A DNA stretch of 64,000 nt from Actinomycetota bacterium. GTDB lineage: Bacteria > Actinomycetota > Actinomycetes > Propionibacteriales > Propionibacteriaceae. Under the pieces are notes generated by a model. That model searched no databases. It saw only the letters and a program-made list of their open reading frames with translations, and was not told the origin of the DNA. Where the stretch lies: positions 1 through 64,000 of the forward strand of contig JAIUOS010000012.1 in assembly GCA_020161755.1 (NCBI GenBank), read 5' to 3'. Position 1 is the stretch's first letter; every line of letters begins with the position of its first letter. The position numbers were made by a program, and so were the translations under genes. Shown one piece after another: positions 43,959 through 56,613 of this stretch.

Positions 43959-44885
43959 TCAGAGGCGGCGTGCAATGGGGTGGAGAGCGCCCAGCCGGGC
44001 GGACGCCCAGGCGCGGTTGGCGGCCTGGTCGGCGACGACCCGCTCGACGTCGGCGGCGGTGAGCGGGGCGCGGTCCTGTTCGACGACCGCCCAGCCGCGA
44101 TAGCCGTCCGCGACGAGGGCGGCGACGAAGCCGTCCAGGTCGAGGTCACCGGCACCGAGGGGGGTGCACAGGTCGGCCCACCAGGTGTCGAAGTCGGTGC
44201 GACGCTCGGCGATCGCCCGTCGCAGCACGTCGAGGTGGACGTCCTTCAGGTGGACGTGGTTGACGCGATCGCGCCACGCCCGCCAGCTGCCGAGCGCGTC
44301 GCCGCCGCCCATGACGACGTGGCCGACGTCGTAGGTGAGGCCGACCGGGGTCTCGGCGAGCAGGCGCTCGATCTCGTGCGGCTGTTCGACGAAGGTGGCG
44401 ATGTGGGAGTGGAAGGACGGCTGGAGGCCGACCTCCTCGACCCGGCGGACGGCGTCGCGGACGACGTCCACCAGCCGGGCCCAGCCGTCCTCGTCGAGGC
44501 CGAGGGCGGGCGAGTGGCACGGGTTGGCGAGCAGAGCGTCGCTGCCCTCGTCGGCGAGGATGACCACGGCGTCGGGGTTGACGGCGAGGAGTTCGGTGAG
44601 GGTCTGCTCCATGCGGGACAGGTCGCGCGCCAGCACCGCGTCCGGGCCCTGGGTGTGCAGTGGGACGTAGGCGCCGACCGCGGTCAGGCCGGCGCTGGCG
44701 AACGCGTCCGTGAGCTCGTCGACGGTGCCGAAGAAGCCGGGCGGGCCGATCTCGCTGCCCTCGTAGCCGGCCTCGGCCATGGTCATCAGCAGCTCGGCGG
44801 GGCTGCTGGCGCCCTCGACGGACAGGTCGCCGAACACCCCGTAGGAGACCGGGGCGTTGGCGAGACGGATCGGTGCGGTGGTCAT
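43959..44885 (-). CDS. IolE-like TIM-barrel isomerase/dehydratase
   Basis: A 308-residue AP-endonuclease-2-type barrel. NAPVSYGVFG, GYEGSEIGPPGFFG, NPCHSPALGLDEDGWARLV, SFHSHIATFVE, LTYDVGHVVMGGGD and HVHLKDV follow the order of inosose dehydratase (IolE), with the metal ligands Glu45, Asp186, His189 and His212 plausible. Known relatives dehydrate scyllo-inosose or catalyse beta-elimination of 3-keto-glycosides. Here its ATG overlaps the stop of a Gfo/Idh/MocA oxidoreductase gene (ATGA), so the two enzymes probably act in sequence: oxidation to a ketone, then elimination or isomerisation. Confidence 0.8.
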   Translation of the reverse strand: MTTAPIRLANAPVSYGVFGDLSVEGASSPAELLMTMAEAGYEGSEIGPPGFFGTVDELTDAFASAGLTAVGAYVPLHTQGPDAVLARDLSRMEQTLTELLAVNPDAVVILADEGSDALLANPCHSPALGLDEDGWARLVDVVRDAVRRVEEVGLQPSFHSHIATFVEQPHEIERLLAETPVGLTYDVGHVVMGGGDALGSWRAWRDRVNHVHLKDVHLDVLRRAIAERRTDFDTWWADLCTPLGAGDLDLDGFVAALVADGYRGWAVVEQDRAPLTAADVERVVADQAANRAWASARLGALHPIARRL

Positions 44886-46045
44886 CGCGCGGCCCCGGTG
44901 GTGTTCGCCTCGGCGTCGGCGTCGGCCTCGATCGTGACGGTCTCGCCCAGCCCGGCGCCGATGGCCTTGGCGAGCCGCTGGCACTGGACGAGGTCGAGCC
45001 GGGCGCCGGCCACGGTGGCGACGACCGGGGCGCCGTCACGGACGGAGCGTCCGAACGCGTCGAGCTGGCGCAGGAACGCCGACTCGTGCAGCTCGGTGTA
45101 GGTGGTCTCCCGGCGCTCGGAGCCCTCGCTGCGCTCGACGCGGAGACGGCTGCGCTCCTCGAGCAGGTAGGGCTTGGCGAGGTGGAGGTCGAGGCGTCGG
45201 CTCGCGGCGAGGACCTTCAGCTCCTCGGAGTACTCGGGGTGGTCGGGCAGCCAGTTCCAGCTCAGGACGTACCGCACGCCGGCGTCCGGGGCGGCGGTGG
45301 CCAGCAGGCAGGCGGGCTCGTCGCCGTCGAGGGTCGGGAAGGTGTCGGCCGTCCAGGCGTCCGGGAGCGGCAGGCCGAGCGCGCGCAGCAGGCTGAACTC
45401 GTGGACCACCGAGCCGTTGAGCACGTTGCGGTAGTAGGCGCGGAGCGCGGGGGACGCGCCGGGCAGCGCGCGGGCCACCTCGGCCTCCTCGGCCGCGTTC
45501 GCGGCCGCGATGAACGCGGGGTCGACGTCGGGGGTGGTGGGACGCATCCTCAAGTGGGCGACCTGGGGCTCGTCGGCGGGGTGGGAGACGGTGATCCGGA
45601 CCAGGCGGCGGGTATGGAGCGCGTCCAGTTCGGCGCGGGCGCGCTGCACCAACGGGTCGTACATCTTCATGTAGCCGACCTGGACGACGAGCCCGGAGCG
45701 CGCGGCGGCGTCTGACACGGCGTCGATGGCGGCCAGGGACAGGCCGAGGGGCTTCTCCGCGAGGACGTGCTTGCCGGCGTCGAGGGCGGCGATCGTCAGC
45801 TCGCTGTGGGCGCCCGGGGTGGCGATCAGGACAGCGTCCACGTCGTCCGCGGCCAGCAGTTCGGAGGGGGTGCTGGTCCAGCGGGCGCCGTAGGCGCTGC
45901 CGACCGCCTCTGCCCGGCTCGGCGAGATGTCCGCGACCCAGGCGAGGTCGAACCCGGCCCTGCGCACCAGCGGGAGGTGCACGGACTGGGAGATTGTGCC
46001 GGCGCCGATCACTCCGATCCGGATCGGGCGGGGGGCAGTGTTCAT
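44882..46045 (-). CDS. Gfo/Idh/MocA-family NAD(P)-dependent sugar oxidoreductase
   Basis: A 387-residue protein from ATG 46045. The Rossmann motif is IGVIGAGTISQSVHLPL (about 9-25), followed by the family motif AEKPLGLSL (EKP, Lys near 99) and a C-terminal alpha/beta domain. It first oxidises a sugar or cyclitol hydroxyl using NAD(P). It is the first gene of a minus-strand run that continues with the IolE-like, ABC, NagB-like, GntR and ROK genes. Substrate specificity cannot be read. Confidence 0.85.
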   Translation of the reverse strand: MNTAPRPIRIGVIGAGTISQSVHLPLVRRAGFDLAWVADISPSRAEAVGSAYGARWTSTPSELLAADDVDAVLIATPGAHSELTIAALDAGKHVLAEKPLGLSLAAIDAVSDAAARSGLVVQVGYMKMYDPLVQRARAELDALHTRRLVRITVSHPADEPQVAHLRMRPTTPDVDPAFIAAANAAEEAEVARALPGASPALRAYYRNVLNGSVVHEFSLLRALGLPLPDAWTADTFPTLDGDEPACLLATAAPDAGVRYVLSWNWLPDHPEYSEELKVLAASRRLDLHLAKPYLLEERSRLRVERSEGSERRETTYTELHESAFLRQLDAFGRSVRDGAPVVATVAGARLDLVQCQRLAKAIGAGLGETVTIEADADAEANTTGAAR

Positions 46046-46108
46046 CGAGGACGCCTTCCATGTGCCGCTGCTGCGTTGCGGTGACACCACGATCATCGCA
46101 CGAAATAA

Positions 46109-46135
46109 ACCAGTTAGTCCAGTACCTAGACCAGT
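46109..46135. promoter_or_regulatory. Candidate GntR/DasR-like operator
   Basis: CCAGT occurs three times in 26 bp (46110, 46119, 46131), and CTAGACCAGT (46126-46135) equals one half of the DasR/NagR-type site ACTGGTCTAGACCAGT; the other half is degenerate (CCAGTAC). It lies 64-90 nt upstream of the first gene of the operon that encodes a HutC-type GntR regulator. Confidence 0.45.
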
Positions 46136-46262
46136 TTGCTTCCCCTCGCCCTCACCACGGTGGGACTGTCCCCGTCCGCCCGCTGACGCGATCTCGCCGC
46201 CCTTGCGGTCGCAGACGTCCCAGTCGTCACACCCTGGTCCTCGGGCGGCCGAGTGACGACAG

Positions 46263-46405
46263 CCCCCCCCCCCCCCCCCCCCCCCCGCGGCCGGGGTACC
46301 CCGCCCCCGCCGGGGGGGCGTCTTTCCGCCCCGCGGGGGGGGGGCGCCGCCCCCCCCCCCCCGGCCCCGGGGGGGGGCGGGGCAGAGGCCCCCCCCCCCC
46401 CCCCC
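46263..46405. repeat. Low-complexity poly-C/poly-G tract
   Basis: Homopolymer runs of up to 24 C separated by short GC words (gcggccggggtaccccg, gcgccg). Such a tract could form G-quadruplexes, but its irregular make-up and isolation suggest a misassembled or miscalled stretch. Confidence 0.7.
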
Positions 46406-46574
46406 GGCCGTGCGTCGGGCACCCGCCGGCAGGGGGCGCCACAGCCCGCCCAGAACCCCTGACGCCATCCGTCCACAGAACCCGCCGGCTGAGACCGCCG
46501 GGACAGCTGGGACGCGGATCGCGGCCAGATCACGACACTGGGCACAGCGGCGGCGTCGAAGTGGACGGAGGGGG

Positions 46575-46832
46575 TCAGAGGGCGCGGCGGGGGGTCGAGC
46601 CCAGGTCGACGGCGAGCGAGCGGACGGTGCGTCCGTTCAGGATCAGGACGCCGCCACCCTCGAGGGCGAACCGGATCACCCCGCCCCGCTCGACGGCGGC
46701 GGTCACCTCGCCCACCAGGCGGGCCTCTTCATGCTCGCCGGCCAGGACGAACGACTCCCCGTCCACGGTCAGGATAATCGGCGAGGACGCCGCGTCGGGG
46801 GCAGCGCGTCGCGGCAGGTCGGACTGCGGCAT
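46575..46832 (-). CDS. Small protein of unknown function (85 residues)
   Basis: Starts at ATG 46832 after a GGAGGGG site. The first 18 residues are polar; the rest (SPIILTVDGESFVLAGEHEEA, then EVTAAVERGGVIRFALEGGG and VLILNGRTVRSLAVDLG) alternates beta-strand-like and helical stretches, suggesting a small alpha/beta or barrel domain. No membrane segment or cysteine. I do not recognise a family. It is transcribed away from the APC permease gene and may share its control region. Confidence 0.6.
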   Translation of the reverse strand: MPQSDLPRRAAPDAASSPIILTVDGESFVLAGEHEEARLVGEVTAAVERGGVIRFALEGGGVLILNGRTVRSLAVDLGSTPRRAL

Positions 46833-47023
46833 CAACACCCCCTCCTCGGGCGACGACCGACACCCGGGAGCCGCCACCCCGCCCCAGACGCTACCTGTAC
46901 GGGTCTGTTCCTGGCGAGCCGGACGGACGAGTCGGCACGCCGCCGACGAGCCCGGCGAACCCCGCAACTCGCGACCGGCCGACGACTGCCCGAACCTGAC
47001 TACTTAGGTTCCGATATTGCCCG

Positions 47024-47064
47024 TTGACAGCCCGCAAGTGACCGATTAGCGTACATGCATCGGT
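47024..47064 (+). promoter_or_regulatory. Promoter and possible operator of the APC permease operon
   Basis: TTGACA (47024-47029) and TAGCGT (47047-47052) are spaced 17 nt apart, a good sigma-70-like pair. ACCGAT (47041-47046) and ATCGGT (47059-47064) form an inverted repeat around the -10 box, a plausible operator for the DeoR regulator encoded second in the operon. Confidence 0.5.
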
Positions 47065-47095
47065 CATGGGTGACCGTGCACGGAAGGAGCAGGGA

Positions 47096-48697
47096 GTGAC
47101 CAACCAGTCTGTGGATCGGCCCAGCGTCTTCATCCGCAACGCCACGGGGTTGCGCAAGGAGGCGGGCGCGTTCGACATCTTCGTCTACAACACGAACAAC
47201 CAGAACATCGGCCTGGGTGTGGCCTTCCTCGGCCTGGCCGTGGGCGCCTACGCCGGCGGCATGCTGCCGCTGTCGGCCCTGCTCGCGGTCGTCCTGATGG
47301 TGCCGCTCTACATGGTCTACACCAAGCTCTCGGCCGACATGCCCCGCTCCGGTGGCGACTACGTCTGGACCAGCCGGATCTTCGGGCCCAAGGTCGGCCC
47401 GGCCCTCGGCTTCATGGGTGCCTGGACGTGGATCATCCTCGCGATCACCGCGATCGGTGCCCCGGCGGCGTTCTTCAGCCAGCTCGGCGTGGCCGGCTGG
47501 ATGCGCAGCCTCGGCGCCGTCACCGGCAACGCGAGCTTCACGGCCGTCGGTGACTGGGTGTCCGGGCAGACCGGGACGATCCTCGTCGGCACCGTCCTGC
47601 TGGCCGTTTTCGCCCTGGTCCTGATCCGCGGCGTGAAGACCTACATGCGCGTGCAGAACATCGCGTTCGGGTTCGCCATCGCGGGCATCGTGCTCCAGTT
47701 CGTCGCCGGCCTCTTCAGCTCCCAGGACACCCTCGCCGAGCGCTTCAACGCCTACGTGGTCGCCGCGGGCGGCGTCCCGGGCGCCTACGACATCGTGATG
47801 CAGAACGTCCCCGAGCCGTCGATGAGCCCCGGTGCGGCCACGATGTACGCGATGGTCTGGACGATCTACATGGTGCTGTTCGGCGCGACGTCCTGCTACA
47901 TCGGCGGCGAGGTGCGGCACGCGAAGAGCACCCAGCGGCTCGGCATGGTGGGGTCGCTGGTCCTGACCGGTGGGGCCATCGCCGGCCTCCTGGCCCTGCT
48001 CGGTGCCCGCATCGGCATGCCGTTCCTGAACGCGCTCAGCCAGACCGATCCCGACTCCCTCGGCGTCGCGTTCCTGCCCAACTACAACGAGATCCTCACG
48101 ATCACGGCGGGCGGCGGGCTGTTCTGGGCGCTGGCCCTCGGCTTCCTGTTCCTCTTCTGGACCTACGTCTGGATGCCGATCAACTTCTTCACCGCCACCC
48201 GGCTGATGCTCGCCCTCTCCCTGGACGGCTACCTCCCGGCCAGCCTGTCGAAGGTCCACAAGAAGTACGCCACCCCCTACATCGGCATCATCGTGGCGGC
48301 GATCGTCGGCGAGCTCTCGCTGATTCTGTTCGTCGTCGGCATCCTGTCGGTGATCACGCTGCTCTGGGCGGGCGTCTTCATCTTCGCGATGGTCGGGGTG
48401 GACGCGATCCTGTACCCGAGCCGCATGCGTGACGTCTGGGAGGGCAACGGCGGCCGGACCTTCGCCGGCATCCCGGTCATCCGGATCTGGGGCATCCTGC
48501 TGGTCCCGACGATGCTCTTCGTGCTGTACCTGCTCTGGAACGACCCGGTGGTCGGCATCGGGCACTCGCCGCTCCAGATGTGGCTCAACATCGGCCTGCC
48601 CGTGTCGGGCCTCGTGCTCTACTTTGTGATCTGGGGCATCCGCAAGCGCGGCGGTGTCGACCTTCGCCTCTCCGCGGCCGAGATCCCGCCGGAATGA
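47096..48697 (+). CDS. APC-superfamily amino acid/amine permease
   Basis: A 533-residue, 12-segment membrane protein from GTG 47096, with AAGGAGC upstream. FDIFVYNTNNQNIGLGVAFLG replaces the usual first helix motif, and MPRSGGDYVWTSRIFGPKVGPALGF is a clear APC signature. Helix 6 to 7 and the EVRHAKSTQRLGMVGSLVLTGG loop are also typical. It imports an amino acid, polyamine or related cation by proton or solute coupling. A DeoR regulator and a ureohydrolase gene follow, so a guanidino or amino compound is a reasonable guess for its cargo. Confidence 0.88.
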   Translation: MTNQSVDRPSVFIRNATGLRKEAGAFDIFVYNTNNQNIGLGVAFLGLAVGAYAGGMLPLSALLAVVLMVPLYMVYTKLSADMPRSGGDYVWTSRIFGPKVGPALGFMGAWTWIILAITAIGAPAAFFSQLGVAGWMRSLGAVTGNASFTAVGDWVSGQTGTILVGTVLLAVFALVLIRGVKTYMRVQNIAFGFAIAGIVLQFVAGLFSSQDTLAERFNAYVVAAGGVPGAYDIVMQNVPEPSMSPGAATMYAMVWTIYMVLFGATSCYIGGEVRHAKSTQRLGMVGSLVLTGGAIAGLLALLGARIGMPFLNALSQTDPDSLGVAFLPNYNEILTITAGGGLFWALALGFLFLFWTYVWMPINFFTATRLMLALSLDGYLPASLSKVHKKYATPYIGIIVAAIVGELSLILFVVGILSVITLLWAGVFIFAMVGVDAILYPSRMRDVWEGNGGRTFAGIPVIRIWGILLVPTMLFVLYLLWNDPVVGIGHSPLQMWLNIGLPVSGLVLYFVIWGIRKRGGVDLRLSAAEIPPE

Positions 48698-48749
48698 CGT
48701 CCCGATCCACCCCCATCTGATCGAACCGGAGAGAACGGCAGGTAGCGGC

Positions 48750-49550
48750 ATGCGTGAACTACGTCTGACGGAGTTGTGCGACCTGGTCGCCGAGCGCGGC
48801 GCGGTCCGCGTCGAGGAGGCGTCCGAGGCGCTCGGCGTCTCCCGGGAGACGATCCGGCGCGACCTGGCCACCCTGGCCGAGCGCGGGCTGGTGCAGCGCA
48901 CGCACGGCGGCGCCGCGGTCAGTGGCCGGGTCCTCACCGAGCGCAGCGTGTCCGAGCGCGAGTCGGAGAACGGGCAGGCGAAGGAGGCGATCGCCGCGCT
49001 GGTCGCGTCCGAACTGGTCGAGGACGGCATGGCGATCATGCTGGACGGCGGGACGACCGCCGCGGCCGTCGCCCGCCGCCTCGCCGGCCGCCAGCTGACG
49101 GTCGTGACAAGTTCCCTGGCGATCGCCGCCTCGCTGATGCCGACGACGACGGACGTGGTGCTGCTCGGCGGCCAGCTGCGCGAGCGGTCGGGCATGACGG
49201 TCGGGCCGCTGGCCGAAGCGGTGTGCGCGCTCGTCCACTGCGACGCCGCGTTCCTGTCCGGCCCCGCGCTCAGCGCCCGCGGCGGCCTGATGGACTCCTA
49301 TGCCGAGGGCGTGCAGATCAAGGGCGCGATGCTGGCCCACTCCGACTCGGCCTACATCATCACCGACAGTTCGAAGCTCGGGCGCACGGCGTTCCTCAAG
49401 GTGTGCGACCTCGCCGACGTCACCGCTGTCGTCACCGACGGCGGGGCCGACCCGGCCGCGATCGACGAACTCCGCGTCAGCGGCGCCACCGTCCTCACCG
49501 CGCCCATGGCCGTCACGGCCGGAATCGAAGGGAAACGACATGCCAGCTGA
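48750..49550 (+). CDS. DeoR-family transcriptional regulator
   Basis: A 266-residue protein. The DeoR HTH VRVEEASEALGVSRETIRRDLATLAERGLVQRTHGGA (about 19-55) is followed by a DeoRC sensor domain: MLDGGTTAAAVARRL, VVTSSLAIA, VVLLGGQLRERSGMTVGPLAE and YIITDSSKLGRTAFLKVCDL. DeoRC domains bind phosphorylated sugars or sugar alcohols, which fits the PfkB kinase of the operon as producer of the inducer. The end of the gene overlaps the ureohydrolase start by 11 nt. Confidence 0.92.
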   Translation: MRELRLTELCDLVAERGAVRVEEASEALGVSRETIRRDLATLAERGLVQRTHGGAAVSGRVLTERSVSERESENGQAKEAIAALVASELVEDGMAIMLDGGTTAAAVARRLAGRQLTVVTSSLAIAASLMPTTTDVVLLGGQLRERSGMTVGPLAEAVCALVHCDAAFLSGPALSARGGLMDSYAEGVQIKGAMLAHSDSAYIITDSSKLGRTAFLKVCDLADVTAVVTDGGADPAAIDELRVSGATVLTAPMAVTAGIEGKRHAS

Positions 49551-50499
49551 CGACCAACCGACCCTCCGGGTGATCCAGTCCGGTGTGGCCACGTTCTTCG
49601 GTCGCCCGATGCGCGACGTCACCGACCTCTCGGTCCCGGTGCACGGCGCGGCGGTGAAGGCCGCGATCGCCGGCATCCCCTGGGACGAGGGCAACGCCGG
49701 GCGCAACGGCGCGAACTACGGTCCCCGCAGCTTCCGCGACGCGTCCAGCTGGTTCCTCGGCTACAACTGCCAGGAGGACTACGACCTGTGGGACCTGCTG
49801 CCCACCGTCGACGTCGGGGACGTGCCGATCATGCCGCCGAACGCGGCCCGGACCATGGACCTGATCGCCGACCACGTCGAGGCCGTCCGCCGCCAGGGCG
49901 TCTTTCCCCTGAGCGTCGGGGGCAACCACTCCCTGGCGATCGGCGCGGCCCGCGGTGCCGCCCGCACGGTCGGACGCATGGGCTACCTCAGCATCGACGC
50001 CCACCTCGACACCGCGGTGGACTGGGACGGCGAGACCCTCGGGAGCGGCTGCCCCACGATCCGGGCCGCCGAGATCGACAACGTCGACCCGAAGAACGTG
50101 GTGGTGTTCGGGATCCACGGCTGGCTCAACCCCCGCGACCAGGTGGAGTCGGCACGCGACCTCGGCATCGGCTGGTACGGCCAGCAGCAGATCGACGAAC
50201 GCGGCCTCGACGAGTGCCTCGAGGAGGCGATCGCGCGGGCCACGGACGGGGTCGACGGGCTGTACGTCAGCCTCGACATGGACTCGATCGACGCGTCCGC
50301 CTTCCCCGGCACCGGCACCCCGGAACCGGGGGGATTCACCGCCAAACAGGCCCTGCACATCGCCCGCCGGCTCGGACGGACGGCTCCCGTAGCCGCCGAC
50401 CTGGTGGAGCTGGCGCCGGTGTACGACCTGTCCGGCATCAGCGCCCGGCTGGCCTGCGGCCTGGCCATGGAACTCCTGAGCGGGGTGGCGGGGAAATGA
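49540..50499 (+). CDS. Ureohydrolase (arginase/agmatinase superfamily), substrate unknown
   Basis: A 319-residue protein. All six dimanganese ligands are present: His130 (in VGGNHSLAIG), Asp153, His155 and Asp157 (SIDAHLDT), Asp246 and Asp248 (SLDMDSID), plus the conserved PGTGTPEPGG (257-265). GGNHS replaces the usual GGDHS. The family cleaves C-N bonds of guanidino (giving urea) or formimino compounds. Known agmatinases and arginases are not usually encoded with BtpA-family, PfkB and phosphoesterase genes, so a different guanidino or amidino substrate is likely. It is translationally coupled on both sides (ATGA with the next gene). Confidence 0.88.
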   Translation: MPADDQPTLRVIQSGVATFFGRPMRDVTDLSVPVHGAAVKAAIAGIPWDEGNAGRNGANYGPRSFRDASSWFLGYNCQEDYDLWDLLPTVDVGDVPIMPPNAARTMDLIADHVEAVRRQGVFPLSVGGNHSLAIGAARGAARTVGRMGYLSIDAHLDTAVDWDGETLGSGCPTIRAAEIDNVDPKNVVVFGIHGWLNPRDQVESARDLGIGWYGQQQIDERGLDECLEEAIARATDGVDGLYVSLDMDSIDASAFPGTGTPEPGGFTAKQALHIARRLGRTAPVAADLVELAPVYDLSGISARLACGLAMELLSGVAGK

Positions 50500-51347
50500 G
50501 CGAACTCCTGACTGACGGCCTGCCGAAGACCAACGACCTCCAGCGCATCTTCGGCCGCCGGTTCGCCCTGATCGGCATGCTCCACCTCCTGCCCCTGCCG
50601 GGCACTCCGCACTACGACCCCCGGGTCGGCGTCACCGGCCTCATCGACCGGGCCAAGAACGAAGCCGCCGCCCTGCTCGACGCCGGGTTCGACGGGCTGA
50701 TCCTCGAGAACGGCTGGGACATCCCCTTCGTCAAGCCGTCCGACCTCGGTCCCGAGACCCCCGCGGTGATGGCGGTGGTGCTGGCCGAGCTGCGTCGCGA
50801 GTTCGACGTGCCGTTCGGCGTGAACGTGCTGGCCAACGCCGCCGCGGTGTCCCTCGCCGTGGCCCAGGCCGCCGGCGGGTCGTTCGTGCGGGCCAACCAG
50901 TGGGCGAACGCCTACGTGGCAAACGAGGGGTTCCTGGAGGGCAAGGCCGGGCAGGTGCTGCGCTACCGCCACAACCTCGGCGCGGACGCGATCTCGGTCT
51001 GGGCGGACGTGCACGTCAAGCTCGGCGCCCACGCGATCACCGCCGACCGGTCGATCGCGGACCAGACCAGGGACGCCGCCTGGTTCGACGCGGACGCGGT
51101 GATCGTCACCGGCACCCGGCTGGGCAGCGAGCCCACCCAGGACGAGCTGGTCGAGATCCGCGAGGCCACGTCGCTGGCGCTGGTCCTCGGCTCCGGCGTC
51201 CGCAGCGACAACCTGGCCGCGCTCGCCGCGCACACCGACGGCGCGATCATCGGCAGTTCGATCAAGGCGGGCGGGGTCTGGCACGGCCCGATCGACACCG
51301 ACGCGTGCCGGGCCATCGCCGCCGCCCGCGACGCGGTGGAGGGGTGA
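50496..51347 (+). CDS. BtpA/SgcQ-family TIM-barrel protein
   Basis: A 283-residue protein. The N-terminal IGMLHLLPLPGTPHYD (26-41), GFDGLILENGWDIPF (64-78) and VPFGVNVLANAA are the family signature. The C-terminal AVIVTGTRLGSEPTQDELVEIR and VLGSGVRSDNLAALA resemble phosphate-binding barrel ends. BtpA of cyanobacteria affects photosystem I; SgcQ of Escherichia coli is a presumed nucleosidase. No reaction is established for the family. In this operon a role on a phosphorylated sugar or ribosyl intermediate is inferred. Confidence 0.88.
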   Translation: MSELLTDGLPKTNDLQRIFGRRFALIGMLHLLPLPGTPHYDPRVGVTGLIDRAKNEAAALLDAGFDGLILENGWDIPFVKPSDLGPETPAVMAVVLAELRREFDVPFGVNVLANAAAVSLAVAQAAGGSFVRANQWANAYVANEGFLEGKAGQVLRYRHNLGADAISVWADVHVKLGAHAITADRSIADQTRDAAWFDADAVIVTGTRLGSEPTQDELVEIREATSLALVLGSGVRSDNLAALAAHTDGAIIGSSIKAGGVWHGPIDTDACRAIAAARDAVEG

Positions 51348-51351
51348 GGTC

Positions 51352-52317
51352 ATGATCCTGGGAGTGGGCAAGCCGAAACTCAAGGTGTTCTACGCCTCCG
51401 ACATCCACGGCTCGGAGCTGGTGTTCCGCAAGTTCCTGAACGCCGCCAGGTTCTACGGGGTGGACGCCCTGATCTTCGGCGGCGACCTGACCGGCAAGGC
51501 CATCGTCCCGTTCGTCGAGGTCACGCCCGGCCACTTCACCGCGGACGTGTTCGGCAACCCGCGGGAGGTCGAGGCCGGCACCCAGCTCACCGAGCTGGAA
51601 CAGTTCGTCCGCGATCGCGGCTCGTACCCGTACCGCACCACGCCGGAGGAACTGGCCGCGATGCAGTCCGACCCGGAGCTGGTGAAGTCCATCTTCAGCG
51701 AGGTCATGCGCGCCACCGCCGAGAAGTGGGTGACGATGGCGGACGACCGGCTCCGCGGGGCCATGCCGTGCCTGATGATGCCCGGCAACGACGACGAGCC
51801 CGAGGTCAAGACCGTCCTGGCCCAGGGCGACTGGGTGCAGGACGGCGAGGACCGGGTCGTGCGCCTCGAGGGCTACCAGGTCGCGAGCTTCGGCTGGGCG
51901 ACGACCACGCCCTGGCACAGCCCGCGCGAAGTGACCGAGGAGGTCATGCTGGAGCGGCTGACCGAGCTCACCGGCAAGCTGGAGCCCGGCGTGCCGACGA
52001 TCCTGAACCTGCACAACCCGCCGGCGGCCTCCGGGCTGGACCTGGCCTACAAGATGTCGAAGGACCTCAAGGTCGACATGGCCGGTGGCCAGGCGCTGGT
52101 GGAGCCGGTCGGCAGTACGGCCGTGCGCACGATCATCGAACGGGTGAGCCCCACGCTGTCGCTGCACGGCCACATCCACGAGTCGCGCGCCACCGCCCGC
52201 ATCGGACGCACCGTCGCGCTCAACCCGGGCTCCTCCTACACCGAGGGCGTCCTCCAGGGGGCGATCATCTCCCTGAAGGGTGACAAGGTGGTCGGTCAGC
52301 AGCTCGTGAACGGCTGA
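51352..52317 (+). CDS. Calcineurin-like metallophosphoesterase
   Basis: A 321-residue cytosolic protein. The motifs are in order: Asp17/His19 in YASDIHG, GGDLTGK (Asp45), PGNDDE (Asn146, Asp147), LNLHNPP (His221) and LHGHIHESRATARIG (His272, 274, 276), so the dimetal site is complete. GNDD in place of GNHE is common in phosphodiesterase-like branches. It starts 4 nt after the BtpA gene. The substrate is presumably a phosphorylated intermediate of the operon's pathway; it could alternatively remove phosphate from an inducer. Confidence 0.88.
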   Translation: MILGVGKPKLKVFYASDIHGSELVFRKFLNAARFYGVDALIFGGDLTGKAIVPFVEVTPGHFTADVFGNPREVEAGTQLTELEQFVRDRGSYPYRTTPEELAAMQSDPELVKSIFSEVMRATAEKWVTMADDRLRGAMPCLMMPGNDDEPEVKTVLAQGDWVQDGEDRVVRLEGYQVASFGWATTTPWHSPREVTEEVMLERLTELTGKLEPGVPTILNLHNPPAASGLDLAYKMSKDLKVDMAGGQALVEPVGSTAVRTIIERVSPTLSLHGHIHESRATARIGRTVALNPGSSYTEGVLQGAIISLKGDKVVGQQLVNG

Positions 52318-52321
52318 CCCG

Positions 52322-53176
52322 ATGGCACACAGAGACGCCGTCCTGGTCGTCGGGGACGTGATGTTCGACTACACGGTCGAGCTCGCACCCGGCGCGCACG
52401 ACGAGAAGCGTGAGGTCAGCTCTTCGCTGACCTGGGTCGGCGGGACGGCGGCGAACGCCGCGGCCGGCCTGGCGACCCTCGGCGTCCCGGTGGCGGTGGC
52501 GGCGACACTCGGCGAGGACTGCGCGGGCGCCTTCTGCCTGGACGAGCTGGTGGCGCGCGGGGTGGACGTCGGGCTGGTCCGACGGCGGGTCGGAGCGACC
52601 GGACGCGCCACGATCGTCATCGACGGCGGGCACCGCAGCGTCCTCGTCGATCGTGGGGTCTCCGAGACCGTGCTCGACGACCTGCCCGGGTTCGAGGTCC
52701 TCTACGCCAGCGGGCCGGCGGTGCTCGGCGGCCGCGTCCCCTCGTGTGGCCGGCTGGTCCTGGGGCTCGAACAGCAGATGGTCGGCCCCGCGATCGAGCC
52801 GCTGCTCGCGCGCGCCGACCTCGTGGTCACCAACGACCTCGGCTGGACGGCGCTGCGCGACCTCGACCCGGCCGCACCCGTCGTCGAGACCCGGGGAGCC
52901 GAGGGCACGGTCATCCATCGTCGCGGCCGGCCGTCGACGCCGGTGGCGCCGGTGCCCGCCGGGGTGGTGGACGCCACCGGCGCCGGGGACGCGTTCGCCG
53001 CCGGACTGGTCGCCGCCCTCGCCGCCGGGGCGCCGCTGGACGCGGCCGTCGCCTTCGCGAACCGGCTCGGGGCGGTCGCCGTCCAGCAGCGCGGCGCGAT
53101 GCTCACCGGCGTCCCCGAAAACCTCCGGGCGGCGTTCTCCCGACTCCGGAGCGAACCAGGAAGGGACTGGCAGTGA
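52322..53176 (+). CDS. PfkB-family carbohydrate/nucleoside kinase
   Basis: A 284-residue protein. N-terminal VVGDVMFDYTVEL, substrate motif WVGGTAANAAAGLATLG (38-54) and the ATP/anion-hole motif VVDATGAGDAFAAG with catalytic base Asp223. It lacks a long lid, as in ribokinase and pseudouridine kinase relatives. It phosphorylates a sugar or nucleoside-like compound with ATP. Its TGA overlaps the GTG of the next gene (GTGA), and it follows the phosphoesterase gene by 4 nt. A kinase and a phosphoesterase in one operon imply a phosphorylated intermediate or signal that is made and removed. Confidence 0.9.
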   Translation: MAHRDAVLVVGDVMFDYTVELAPGAHDEKREVSSSLTWVGGTAANAAAGLATLGVPVAVAATLGEDCAGAFCLDELVARGVDVGLVRRRVGATGRATIVIDGGHRSVLVDRGVSETVLDDLPGFEVLYASGPAVLGGRVPSCGRLVLGLEQQMVGPAIEPLLARADLVVTNDLGWTALRDLDPAAPVVETRGAEGTVIHRRGRPSTPVAPVPAGVVDATGAGDAFAAGLVAALAAGAPLDAAVAFANRLGAVAVQQRGAMLTGVPENLRAAFSRLRSEPGRDWQ

Positions 53177-53934
53177 GCGCACAACCCTCCGCCGCGCCGA
53201 TGGAAGAGGCCCGGCGTCTCCACGAACTCGCCCGGGCGCAGGGCGTCACGGTGCGCCTCCTCGGCGGGGTCGCGGTCGCGCTCGCCGCCGACGGGCCCCT
53301 GCCCGAATCCCTCCAGCGCACCTACAAGGACCTCGACTACGTGGTGAAGCGCAAGGACTCCCCGAAGTGGGCCGCCCTCCTGGAGTCGTCCGGCTACGTC
53401 GCGGACGCCTCGTTCAACAGCCTCCACGGCTCCCAGCGGCTGCTGCACTACGACGTGGCCAACGACAAGCAGCTCGACACGTTCGTCGGCGAGTTCGCCA
53501 TGTGCCACGTCCTCGACCTCGAGCGCCGGCTCCCGGCCGAGGGCATCACGCTCGCGCCGGCCGACCTGCTGCTCACCAAGCTCCAGATCGTCGAGGTCAA
53601 CGACAAGGACCTGGTCGACACGATCGCCCTGCTCCTCACCCACCCGGTCGACGAGAGCGCCCGGGGGCTGTCCCCGTCCGCGTTCGCCGCGATCCTGGGG
53701 ACCGACTGGGGCTGGCACACCACGATCACCGACAACCTCGCCAAGGTGGCTGCCCGGGTGGGTCCGGCCGGGCTCACCCCCGACGAGACCGCCCAGGTGC
53801 AGGGACGGGTCACCGAACTGCTCGGCCTCGCCGAGAGCTGCCCGAAGTCGTTGAAGTGGAAGGCCCGGTCGGTCGTGGGCCGACGGATGCCCTGGTACGA
53901 CCTGCCGGAGGAGGTCGACCACGATGGCAACTGA
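53173..53934 (+). CDS. Nucleotidyltransferase-fold-like protein, function unknown
   Basis: A 253-residue protein from GTG 53173. TVRLLGGVAVAL (26-38) followed by RTYKDLDYVVKR (49-60) resembles the GG...DxD core of minimal nucleotidyltransferases of the AbiEii type (LLGG...R.T.DLD). PADLLLTKLQIVEVNDKDLVDTIALLL further on is also found in that group. Whether it adenylates a small molecule, RNA or a protein is not readable. It is fully coupled to the catabolic operon, unlike toxin genes, and no antitoxin-like partner is present, so I favour a metabolic or regulatory role. Confidence 0.7.
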   Translation: MSAQPSAAPMEEARRLHELARAQGVTVRLLGGVAVALAADGPLPESLQRTYKDLDYVVKRKDSPKWAALLESSGYVADASFNSLHGSQRLLHYDVANDKQLDTFVGEFAMCHVLDLERRLPAEGITLAPADLLLTKLQIVEVNDKDLVDTIALLLTHPVDESARGLSPSAFAAILGTDWGWHTTITDNLAKVAARVGPAGLTPDETAQVQGRVTELLGLAESCPKSLKWKARSVVGRRMPWYDLPEEVDHDGN

Positions 53935-53939
53935 GGCGT

Positions 53940-53953
53940 CTACTACGTTGTAG
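53940..53953. promoter_or_regulatory. Candidate operator of the LacI regulator at 53984
   Basis: CTACTACGTTGTAG is a near-perfect palindrome matching the CTACAACGTTGTAG-type half sites found at 61070-61101 upstream of the cognate ABC operon. It lies 30 nt before the regulator's ATG, suggesting autoregulation. Confidence 0.55.
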
Positions 53954-53983
53954 AGTTACGTTCCAACAACTTGAGGAGCACCC

Positions 53984-55051
53984 ATGGCCGCGACCTTGCA
54001 CGACGTGAGCAAGCTCGCCGGCGTGTCCATCAAGACCGTGTCGAACGTCATCAACGACTACCCCTACATCCGCGAGTCCACCCGCGCGAAGGTGCTGGCC
54101 GCGATCGCCGAGCTCGGCTACACCCCGAACCTGTCGGCACGGAACCTCCGCATCGGCCGCAGCAACGTGATCAGCCTGGTCATCCCCGAACTGCGCAACG
54201 CCTACTTCGCCGAGCTCGCCGACTCCGTCATGAGGGCAGCGAGCGGACGCGGCTACGCCGTCCTCATCGAGCAGTTCGGCAACACCCGCGAGGAGGAACT
54301 CGCGGTCGTGCGCAAGGCGCGCGGCCAGATGGTCGACGGCATCCTGTACAGCGTGCTCACCCTCGGCGAGGACGACCGGGAGCTCCTGAACGAGGTGAAG
54401 ATGCCCACCGTGCTCCTGGGCGAACGGATCTTCGACGGGCCCAAGGACCACGTCACCATGCAGAACGTCGAGGGGGCACGCGCGGCCACCGAAGCCCTGC
54501 TGCGCGACGGACGCCGCCGCATCGTCGCCCTCGGCGCACACCCCGGCGAGGTGATCGGCTCGGCCGGGCTGCGGCTCACCGGCTACCGCGAGGCGCTGGA
54601 CGCGGCCGGGCTCCCGCTCGACGACGAACTCGTCATCCCCGTCGACACCTGGCACCGTGCGGACGGCGCCCGCGCCATGCGCGCCTTCCTCGACCAGGAC
54701 GTGCCCTTCGACGGGGTGGTCGCGTTCAACGACACGCTCGCGTTCGGCGCCCTGCGTGTCCTCCAGGAAGCCGGACGCCGGGTCCCCGAGGACGTCGCGC
54801 TCATCGGCTTCGACGACATCGACGAGACCCGCTACTCGATGCCGACCCTGTCGACCATCGATCCGGGCCGCGACGAGATCGCCCGCCGCGCGGTCGACCT
54901 GCTCCTGCGCCGGATCGAGGAGGGCGCCGACACCGTCCAGCCCGTCGAGGTCGCCGTGCCCTTCCGGCTGATCGAGCGCGAATCGACCGGCGGCCCCCCG
55001 GACGCAGCCACCGGCCGTTCGCTCCCTCTCGAACCCGCCGTCACCCACTGA
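53984..55051 (+). CDS. LacI-family regulator of the arabinoside/glycoside locus
   Basis: A 355-residue protein after a TTGAGGAGC site. The HTH is TLHDVSKLAGVSIKTVSNVIN (about 4-24), with the hinge YTPNLSARNLRIGRSN and a sugar-binding domain ending in ALIGFDDIDETRYSMPTLSTIDP. It converges with the GH51 gene (22-nt gap). Operator-like palindromes occur before its own gene and before the binding-protein gene at 61028, so it should control the whole 55074-61028 operon. The effector is probably an arabinose- or glucose-containing oligosaccharide or its product. Confidence 0.9.
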   Translation: MAATLHDVSKLAGVSIKTVSNVINDYPYIRESTRAKVLAAIAELGYTPNLSARNLRIGRSNVISLVIPELRNAYFAELADSVMRAASGRGYAVLIEQFGNTREEELAVVRKARGQMVDGILYSVLTLGEDDRELLNEVKMPTVLLGERIFDGPKDHVTMQNVEGARAATEALLRDGRRRIVALGAHPGEVIGSAGLRLTGYREALDAAGLPLDDELVIPVDTWHRADGARAMRAFLDQDVPFDGVVAFNDTLAFGALRVLQEAGRRVPEDVALIGFDDIDETRYSMPTLSTIDPGRDEIARRAVDLLLRRIEEGADTVQPVEVAVPFRLIERESTGGPPDAATGRSLPLEPAVTH

Positions 55052-55073: not shown

Positions 55074-56597
55074 TCAGTCCGGCAGCTCGACCAGGATCTC
55101 GACCCAGGAGACCGGCGGCAGCTCGACCCGCACCGCGTCCCCCTCACGCCGGTACGGCAGGTCGGCCAGCACCACCCGGTCGGGGTGGTCGAGAGTGTTC
55201 GCCGCGTCCAGGTCGTCGTCGGCGAGGACGCGGACGCCGAGCCGGGCGCCCGCCGCGACCGTCCCGAGGGCGGCCAGGTCGAGGACGAACTCCGTCGGCC
55301 CGTCGGTCGCCCGGTTGACCGCGAACACCGCGTACCGGCCGGCGGCCTCGTCGTGGGTCACGACCGCGTCGACCAGCGGCACCTCCCCGAACCGCTCGGT
55401 GCGGTAGGTCTCGCAGGCGACGTCGGCCGCCAGCGCCACCCCGCGGCCGTGGGCCGAGGTCGCGGCGAACGGGAAGAAGGTCGCCTGCTTCCAGGCCGGG
55501 CCGCCCGGCTCGGTCATGATCGGCGCGATCACGTTCACCAGCTGCGCCAGCGACGCGCTGGTCACCCGGTCGGCGTGCTTGAGCAGCGAGATCAGCAGGC
55601 TGCCGAACACCACCGCGTCCGCCACCGTGTAGGTGTCCTCCAGCAGCCGCGGCGCAACCGGCCAGTTGTCGACGCCGGTGATCTTGTCGACGTTCTCGAA
55701 CCGGGTGGCGTACCAGACGTTCCACTCGTCGAAGGAGATGTTGATCGTCCGGTCGCTGCTGCGCACCGCCTTCACGTGGTCGGCCGTGCTGACCACACTC
55801 TCGATGAACCGGTCCATGTCGACGCCGGACGCCAGGAACGCGCCGAGGTCGCCGGTGTTCTCGTAGTAGGCGTGGCAGGAGATGAACTCGACGTCCTCGT
55901 AGGTGTGGCTCAGCACCACCCGCTCCCACTCGCCGAACGTGGGCATGGACGAGCTGGACGATCCGCACACGACCAGTTCGAGGTCGGGGTCGACCATCTT
56001 CATCGCCTGGGCGGTGCGGGCGGCGAGCGTGCCGTAGTCCTCGGCGGTGCGGTGGCCGACCTGCCACGGCCCGTCCATCTCGTTGCCGAGGCACCACATC
56101 CGGATCCCGAACGGCTCGGTGCGCCCGTTGGCGATCCGCTGCTCGGCCCGGGCGGTGCCGGCGCGGTGGTTGGCGTACTCCAGCAGCGCCAGCGCCTCGG
56201 CCACACCCCTCGTGCCGAGGTTGACCGCCAGCACCAGCTCGCTGCCGACCGCGTCCAGCCACGCCTGGAACTCGTGCAGGCCCACCTGGTTCGTCTCGGT
56301 GGAGTGCCACGCCAGGTCGAGCCGACGCGGACGGTCCTCGCGCGGCCCGACCGAGTCCTCCCACTGGAAACCGGAGACGAAGTTGCCCCCGGGGTAGCGG
56401 ACGCCGGTGACGCCCAGCTCCTTGACCAGCTCGATCACGTCGGTGCGGAACCCGTCCGCGTCCGCGGTGGGGTGCTGCGGCTCGTGGATGCCGTCGTACA
56501 CGGCACGGCCGAGGTGCTCGAGGAACGACCCGTAGAGCCGCGGGTTGATCGGCCCGATGACCGCGGACGGGGTCAGGGCGAGGTGTGCAGTGTGCAT
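55074..56597 (-). CDS. abfA: GH51 alpha-L-arabinofuranosidase
   Basis: A 507-residue protein from ATG 56597, with AAGAAG upstream; an ATG at 56609 would add four residues. GH51 motifs: NPRLYGSFLEHLGRAVYDGIHEP near the start, acid/base Glu173 in CLGNEMDGPWQ and nucleophile Glu291 in SFDEWNVWY. A C-terminal beta-sandwich ends in VSWVEILVEL. There is no signal peptide, so it removes terminal arabinofuranose from imported oligosaccharides in the cytosol. It is the last gene of the operon with GH1 and the ABC importer. Confidence 0.93.
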   Translation of the reverse strand: MHTAHLALTPSAVIGPINPRLYGSFLEHLGRAVYDGIHEPQHPTADADGFRTDVIELVKELGVTGVRYPGGNFVSGFQWEDSVGPREDRPRRLDLAWHSTETNQVGLHEFQAWLDAVGSELVLAVNLGTRGVAEALALLEYANHRAGTARAEQRIANGRTEPFGIRMWCLGNEMDGPWQVGHRTAEDYGTLAARTAQAMKMVDPDLELVVCGSSSSSMPTFGEWERVVLSHTYEDVEFISCHAYYENTGDLGAFLASGVDMDRFIESVVSTADHVKAVRSSDRTINISFDEWNVWYATRFENVDKITGVDNWPVAPRLLEDTYTVADAVVFGSLLISLLKHADRVTSASLAQLVNVIAPIMTEPGGPAWKQATFFPFAATSAHGRGVALAADVACETYRTERFGEVPLVDAVVTHDEAAGRYAVFAVNRATDGPTEFVLDLAALGTVAAGARLGVRVLADDDLDAANTLDHPDRVVLADLPYRREGDAVRVELPPVSWVEILVELPD

Positions 56598-56613
56598 GGC
56601 TTCTTTCATCGGT

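Follow-up and report, generated by a model that had tools for sequence, protein, structure and literature searches.

The window analysed here, the first 64,000 nucleotides of contig JAIUOS010000012.1 from an actinomycetotal bacterium of the family Propionibacteriaceae, contains a seven-gene operon at 47066-53934, with all genes on the plus strand. Three of its products, a permease of the APC superfamily, a metallophosphoesterase (MPE) and a nucleotidyltransferase-fold protein (NTase), belong together as a core found across bacteria and archaea. The other four genes form a pathway layer that probably serves to degrade a guanidino compound with a sugar part. We tentatively read the operon as the sum of these two layers, the NTase and the MPE of the core acting in opposite directions at the uptake step, with the permease as their first-choice target.

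The seven-gene operon of the window

The genes and features of the locus are as follows.

47066-48697, plus strand: APC-superfamily permease of a divergent subfamily, core gene (PF13520 match)
48750-49550, plus strand: DeoR-family repressor, pathway layer (HTH_DeoR and DeoRC matches)
49540-50499, plus strand: ureohydrolase of the arginase fold, pathway layer (PF00491; GGNHS, DAHLD and DMDSID motifs)
50496-51347, plus strand: BtpA/SgcQ-family protein, pathway layer (TIGR00259; C-terminal region TrpA-like)
51352-52317, plus strand: MPE, core gene (invariant metal-ligand residues)
52322-53176, plus strand: PfkB/ribokinase-family sugar kinase, pathway layer (PF00294; DATGAGD motif)
53173-53934, plus strand: NTase, core gene with a GTG start (fold; invariant G31, D53, D55 and D102)
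53984-55051, plus strand: LacI-family regulator, 49 nt downstream, an uncertain member of the operon (family search)
47024-47029, plus strand: TTGACA upstream of the permease, without an adequate -10 box (sequence and consensus scan)

A first-pass annotation of this DNA had described seven plus-strand genes, six of them tightly coupled, and both the coordinates and the junction lengths agree with it. From DeoR to the NTase, neighbouring genes overlap first by 11 nt and then by 4 nt, are twice separated by 4 nt and finally overlap by 4 nt again, so that the six genes are translationally coupled or nearly so; 52 nt separate the permease from DeoR. A GTG at 47096, preceded by AGGAG, was noticed by eye as an alternative start of the permease. 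The family assignments were upheld by a Pfam scan of the nine annotated genes at 44882-55051, with scores above the cut-offs (in brackets) for AA_permease_2 at 68.9 (27), DeoRC at 145 (31.8), Arginase at 236.3 (22), BtpA at 223 (30), PfkB at 108.2 (25.8) and NTP_transf_5 at 36.3 (31.2). The MPE match was marginal (Metallophos_2 27.8, cut-off 27; Metallophos 21.2, cut-off 21.5). The good promoter that had been proposed ahead of the permease did not hold up: the TTGACA is present, yet a consensus scan of 46500-54200 gave no promoter-like site reaching the threshold.

The whole operon, in the identical order APC-DeoR-ureohydrolase-BtpA-MPE-PfkB-NTase, is found in two metagenome-assembled genomes titled Bacillota (loci L075 and L076). 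Identities to the window in L075 and L076, respectively, are 71 and 69% for the APC permease, 48 and 45% for DeoR, 73 and 74% for the ureohydrolase, 65 and 65% for BtpA, 71 and 70% for the MPE, 39 and 38% for PfkB and 60 and 60% for the NTase. At 38-39%, PfkB (52322-53176) falls far behind the other operon genes in conservation. Because the gene order repeats in these two loci, its recurrence goes beyond chance; the full seven-gene order is conserved but seldom seen. When the window genome was compared with 59 relatives, 29 of them from the same genus, the MPE was found in only one of the 60 genomes, the window's own. The annotation had counted loss of the gene order outside this strain as a refutation; the order is kept in L075 and L076, though none of the 59 relatives has the MPE. 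Beside the operon, the three best relatives of the gene at 55074-56609 all belong to the same genus (65, 63 and 64% identity). This neighbour of native affinity, together with the lack of the MPE in the 59 relatives, points to acquisition of the operon by the window strain. A contaminating contig was also considered and is unlikely, as the same neighbouring gene matches the same genus best.

A core of permease, phosphoesterase and nucleotidyltransferase

Using the window MPE as bait, we gathered 40 neighbourhoods from the higher-scoring matches and 79 further loci from an alignment search (the best 80 of 556 relatives). Open reading frames (ORFs) of these 119 loci and of the window were called and clustered, and the 132 MPE ORFs were reduced to 121 by removing those more than 95% identical. 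Adjacency was counted for the 81 MPE genes flanked by 3 kb or more on each side, which, counting the window, lie on 77 stretches. In 79 of the 81 cases a core-subfamily permease stands within 3 kb of the MPE (78 on the same strand), and all 81 have one somewhere on the stretch; for the NTase the corresponding numbers are 58 and 73. The median gap is 30 bp between MPE and APC (all 121 genes) and 4 bp between MPE and NTase (pairs less than 3 kb apart), and all six possible orders of the three genes occur. Where the NTase was missing within 3 kb (22 loci), the whole genomes behind nine loci (seven genomes) were searched, and it was present in five of the seven. The locus titles name Actinomycetota, Chloroflexota, Dormiibacterota, Armatimonadetes, Alphaproteobacteria, Desulfobacterales, Bathyarchaeota, Baldrarchaeota and Nitrososphaeria, with Halobellus limi and Thermomicrobium roseum joining from plasmid records. 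In the former, the NTase (E 2.1e-90) is annotated as a 'hypothetical protein' and encoded between MPE and APC. A chance neighbourhood was rejected: the 4.08-Mb genome of the window holds five AA_permease_2 matches, against a core APC near 79 of 81 MPEs.

Two observations on these loci stand apart. The T. roseum plasmid carries, near its APC-MPE genes, a separate pair of a small nucleotidyltransferase domain and a HEPN protein (L187:11329-12064), the former of which does not match the core NTase profile. Two distinct MPE paralogues occur in one operon or contig in L046, L048, L053, L054 and L064, in several of them beside genes for DAO+GCV_T dehydrogenases or aldehyde dehydrogenases.

The three genes also match in their distribution. 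Among 396 genomes of the phylum, 47 carry the MPE, 45 the NTase and 44 both; MPE matches were counted from 79 bits upwards, and 11 matches in 8 genomes below this were left out, so that 47 of 55 genomes remain. Up to five MPE, six NTase and three permease candidates were scored per genome in these scans. The core APC subfamily (E <=1e-60) is present in 46 of the 396 genomes, and 42 of the 50 genomes with any core gene have all three. An MPE stands no more than 3 kb from 52 of 61 NTase matches and from 56 of 62 matches of the permease subfamily. In a second phylum, that of a Thermomicrobium, 28 of 131 genomes have the MPE, 29 the NTase and 28 both, with equal copy numbers of MPE and NTase in 24 of the 28. 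Distances among 68 APC/MPE/NTase trios correlate (Mantel r 0.83, 0.77 and 0.71, 999 permutations); these values are uncorrected for species relatedness and include at least one case of two MPEs sharing one APC and NTase.

The partner genes around the core are varied. They encode ureohydrolases of several groups, a carbon-nitrogen hydrolase, M24 creatinase-like and histone-deacetylase-like proteins, iron-containing alcohol dehydrogenase (Fe-ADH), OpuAC binding proteins, a PF04199 cyclase and serine dehydratase. DAO+GCV_T dehydrogenases come with electron transfer flavoprotein (ETF) and choline-kinase-like genes, amidohydrolase and allantoicase are accompanied by PfkB-SIS and a LOG-like protein, FmdA by AllG and glutamine-synthetase-like genes, and FGGY kinase by BtpA and SDR. 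These labels come from one representative per cluster, and those of aldehyde dehydrogenase (ALDH), IclR, GntR-FCD, one of three SDR clusters and 'DAO?' stand without a family-search check. In loci such as L106, L037 and L039 the operon string is NTase-MPE-APC only, with no catabolic gene. Counts of operon strings are lower bounds, since the simple ORF caller at times misjudged frame or start (the window, for instance, shows up as MPE alone). The shared theme of the partners would be the uptake of nitrogen compounds other than ordinary alpha-amino acids.

Two of the core proteins, the NTase and the MPE, keep the catalytic residues of their folds. In the structure alignments (56 of 65 NTase and 66 of 75 MPE references, each with the window's own sequence), G31, D53, D55, D102, K136, Q138, D146, D149, W179, W229 and W241 are invariant in the 57 NTases. 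Residues G31, D53, D55 and D102 form the motif of the NTase superfamily, G-[GSA], D-x-D and a third Asp, and hold also with 97 letters per column. The AlphaFold model of the NTase is confident (pLDDT 95.3, pTM 0.92); its top Foldseek matches are MenT1 (E 4.6e-05), JHP933 and a Paracoccidioides NTase-like protein, followed by LnuA (E 1.2e-03, TM 0.67 by target length) and ANT(2'')-Ia. The core NTase shares with LnuA, ANT(2'')-Ia and MenT1 the fold, the DxD and the third Asp, but differs from them by a helical C-terminal part with invariant Trp and by its near-constant association with MPE and APC. No clear sequence relative was found among solved structures (best E 0.048). Against the PF14907 NTP_transf_5 cut-off of 31.2, which the window protein passes, L097 scored 31.3, and L139 and L121 had no match (three relatives scanned).

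In the 67 aligned MPEs, D17, H19, D45, N146, H221, H274 and H276 are invariant, and the superfamily motifs DxH, GGD, GND, H and GHxH are all present. The structure model is confident, with aq_1956, TT1561 and MPPED2 as nearest folds; the calcineurin-like fold and the metal ligands are shared with these and with SbcD, but the window MPE is 14-15% identical to the nearest of them. The segment after GGD (about residues 50-134, strands and three helices) appears from secondary structure to be an insertion. The MPE profile also weakly resembles Rv0805, a cyclic-nucleotide phosphodiesterase.

As for the permease, 113 core APCs form a clade separate from 30 other APCs of the phylum (support 0.967), the controls being the best PF13520 match of one genome each and hence biased to canonical members. 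An N-terminal motif, FxRx[AST][TS]GL, is found in 107 of 113 core APCs and in none of the 30 controls, and in all 107 carriers Thr or Ser precedes the Gly. A C-terminal tail, G-[IVM]...[IVL]-P, is present in 95 of 113 and again in no control; most of these tails end in E-[IL]-P-x-[ED], with E-I-P-x-[ED] as the commonest shape.

The proposed pathway layer: ureohydrolase, BtpA, PfkB and DeoR

The best solved relatives of the window ureohydrolase are 7esr/7oi1 (176.7 bits), which we take to be the guanidine hydrolase GdmH (the PDB molecule name is 'Probable agmatinase 2'), metformin hydrolase subunit A (173.1 bits, and variants), and then 9fek, presumably a guanidinase (PDB molecule name 'agmatinase 2'). 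Its arginase-fold metal-ligand motifs, GGNHS, DAHLD and DMDSID, match the H, DxHxD and DxD of the GdmH/MefH type, but the likeness amounts to only about 175 bits. The protein falls below the cut-offs of all five NCBIfam ureohydrolase models that it matched, among them those for agmatinase (TIGR01230, 152.9 against 174.3; PRK02190, 160.5 against 302), arginase (TIGR01229, 103.5 against 227.6) and formimidoylglutamase (TIGR01227, 114.9 against 229.15). Leaving aside L075 and L076, it is 28-40% identical to the core-linked ureohydrolases. The nickel chaperone genes hypA and hypB have been described as adjoining the metformin hydrolase genes (PMC11399263). Neither is among the nine annotated genes at 44882-55051, the scope of that search.

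BtpA is, to our knowledge, a family without a firmly assigned reaction. The window protein passes the cut-off of TIGR00259 (205.2 against 153.4), the BtpA/SgcQ family of the E. coli sgc operon and of cyanobacterial BtpA, but it lies far below the equivalog model for photosystem I biogenesis (NF045918, 172.5 against 400). Residues 183-256 match TrpA weakly (E 0.028), and we read this C-terminal stretch as a putative phosphate-binding site resembling the phosphate-binding end of TrpA. A carbohydrate kinase neighbours BtpA in nine of ten distinct BtpA loci: PfkB in the window, L075 and L076, PfkB-SIS in L099, and FGGY in L071, L125, L136, L137 and L140. The locus without one is L114, on the same contig as L047. 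In E. coli, sgcQ likewise stands among phosphotransferase system (PTS), epimerase and regulator genes, whereas the window BtpA is accompanied by the ureohydrolase, a kinase and the core. The window PfkB has the PF00294 match and scores below the ribokinase cut-off (TIGR02152, 84.3 against 299.65). Since the ureohydrolase has guanidine- and metformin-hydrolase relatives, BtpA has a TrpA-like stretch, a kinase occurs in nine of ten BtpA loci and sgcQ has a comparable context, a phosphorylated sugar intermediate of guanidino origin is a fair guess, which agrees with the first-pass annotation. The window genome holds a second BtpA-family gene away from the operon (G000:C1:165972-166604, L002; 67.2 bits, over the cut-off).

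Fructosamine operons of the Frl type consist of an APC permease, a PfkB kinase, a SIS deglycase and a GntR-UTRA regulator. The window shares APC and PfkB with them, but has no SIS deglycase gene among the nine annotated genes, and DeoR stands in place of GntR. Elsewhere, PfkB-SIS cluster genes lie beside the core in L099, L103, L146, L148 and L152 (L103 checked), with UTRA-cluster regulators in L103, L148 and L152. Several of the five also have UTRA-GntR, LOG-like, amidohydrolase or allantoicase genes, and L099 a distant BtpA relative. These loci resemble Frl operons with a ureide twist.

Around the operon, a palindrome just upstream of the LacI gene (CTAC-GTT-GTAG, 53943-53953) could be an operator, as noticed by eye. 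A LacI-family gene also adjoins the core in L055 and L058 (family checked in L055). To the left, on the minus strand, lies a Gfo/Idh/MocA oxidoreductase gene (44882-46063), with sugar-related genes nearby (by eye).

A possible control of uptake and its alternatives

Fold and conserved catalytic residues point to nucleotide transfer by the NTase and phosphoester hydrolysis by the MPE. We hypothesize that the NTase would put a nucleotide on a target at the uptake step and that the MPE would take it off again, this opposition adjusting uptake to supply. The first-choice target would be the permease itself, whose two ends carry motifs lacking in 30 other APCs. We favour the permease because the core stays constant while the pathways change, copy numbers match, and the ends of the permease are subfamily-specific and include a Thr or Ser. 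The modified site would perhaps be this conserved N-terminal Thr/Ser, with docking on the E-I-P-x-E tail. In the window, the imported compound probably bears a guanidino group that the ureohydrolase would remove; its sugar or polyol part would be phosphorylated by PfkB and then cleaved or rearranged by BtpA, and DeoR probably senses the phosphorylated intermediate.

Several findings weigh against this reading. The loci come from the top-scoring relatives of the bait MPE, with remote relatives outside the sample. The NTase is off the stretch in 8 of the 81 MPE cases and absent from two of the seven whole genomes searched (0.7 and 1.5 Mb), and in the phylum G200 and G318 carry the permease without MPE or NTase. 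The stoichiometry is not strict: some operons have two MPEs and one NTase, L080 and L082 have two APCs, and MPEs outnumber NTases in 4 of the 28 second-phylum genomes. No fused core proteins were found among the ORFs of the loci. Of the 81 MPE genes, only 10 have a ureohydrolase within 3 kb and 5 a BtpA, so the pathway layer of the window is a minority case. Finally, the nearest folds of the NTase (MenT1, LnuA, ANT(2'')-Ia) are small-molecule enzymes or toxins, and its weak profile matches lead to AadB and a lincosamide resistance protein.

These last points bear on the alternative that comes nearest to control of the permease. The NTase could adenylylate or otherwise nucleotidylate the imported compound, trapping or activating it, and the MPE could later cleave the phosphodiester for the pathway enzymes. 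Aminoglycoside and lincosamide NTases do nucleotidylate small molecules, and the fold neighbours LnuA and ANT(2'')-Ia, the AadB and lincosamide NTase profile matches, the invariant tryptophans of the NTase and the additional MPEs of some operons are all consistent with such a role. However, the partner genes imply very different substrates (apparently guanidino compounds, N-methyl glycines, ureides and amides), some of which would have no hydroxyl group to modify, and the strings of loci such as L106, L037 and L039 contain no catabolic gene at all. We consider this metabolic role only a little less likely than control of the permease.

A small nucleotide signal, made by the NTase, degraded by the MPE and answered by the permease or a regulator, is improbable. 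The almost constant pairing of a nucleotide-transfer fold with a phosphoesterase and the weak likeness of the MPE profile to Rv0805 would suit it, but a diffusible shared signal needs no match in copy number such as that of 24 of 28 genomes, and the closest folds of the NTase are neither cyclases nor dinucleotide synthases.

The first-pass annotation had taken all seven genes, MPE and NTase included, for the stages of a single guanidino-sugar pathway. This agrees with the translational coupling and with the presence of the full gene set in L075 and L076, and one part of it stands, as a sugar kinase recurs with BtpA, elsewhere FGGY instead of PfkB. But the three core genes also turn up together next to a wide range of unrelated catabolic genes, or by themselves, which makes the MPE and the NTase unlikely to be guanidino-sugar-specific steps, and the ureohydrolase and BtpA are infrequent neighbours of the MPE. 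A single seven-step pathway is therefore quite improbable. It is hardly credible that the NTase is a MenT/MNT-type toxin restrained by a neighbour: MenT1 is its top Foldseek match, but none of the nine annotated genes belongs to a HEPN or antitoxin family that could partner it, and the proteins that constantly accompany it are a permease and a phosphoesterase with intact motifs.

Returning to the control of the permease, it is tempting to propose, in a broader and more doubtful form, that a dedicated NTase and a dedicated MPE reversibly nucleotidylate a dedicated APC subfamily in bacteria and archaea. This would be a new kind of transport control, the cassette having been combined repeatedly with different nitrogen-compound pathways. 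The annotation had also called the operon undescribed; no description of the operon or of the three-gene module was found in the openly licensed PMC text searched, and the APC-MPE-NTase core is apparently undescribed. We file the window operon under a known type, the uptake and degradation operons for nitrogen compounds, in which control of transport would be the new element.

In summary, the pathway layer of the window places BtpA in a concrete context, with an accompanying kinase and a guanidino hydrolase. The core, for its part, suggests either an unrecognised step in the uptake of nitrogen compounds by prokaryotes or an unrecognised nucleotidylated intermediate, and either outcome is directly testable with three small genes.

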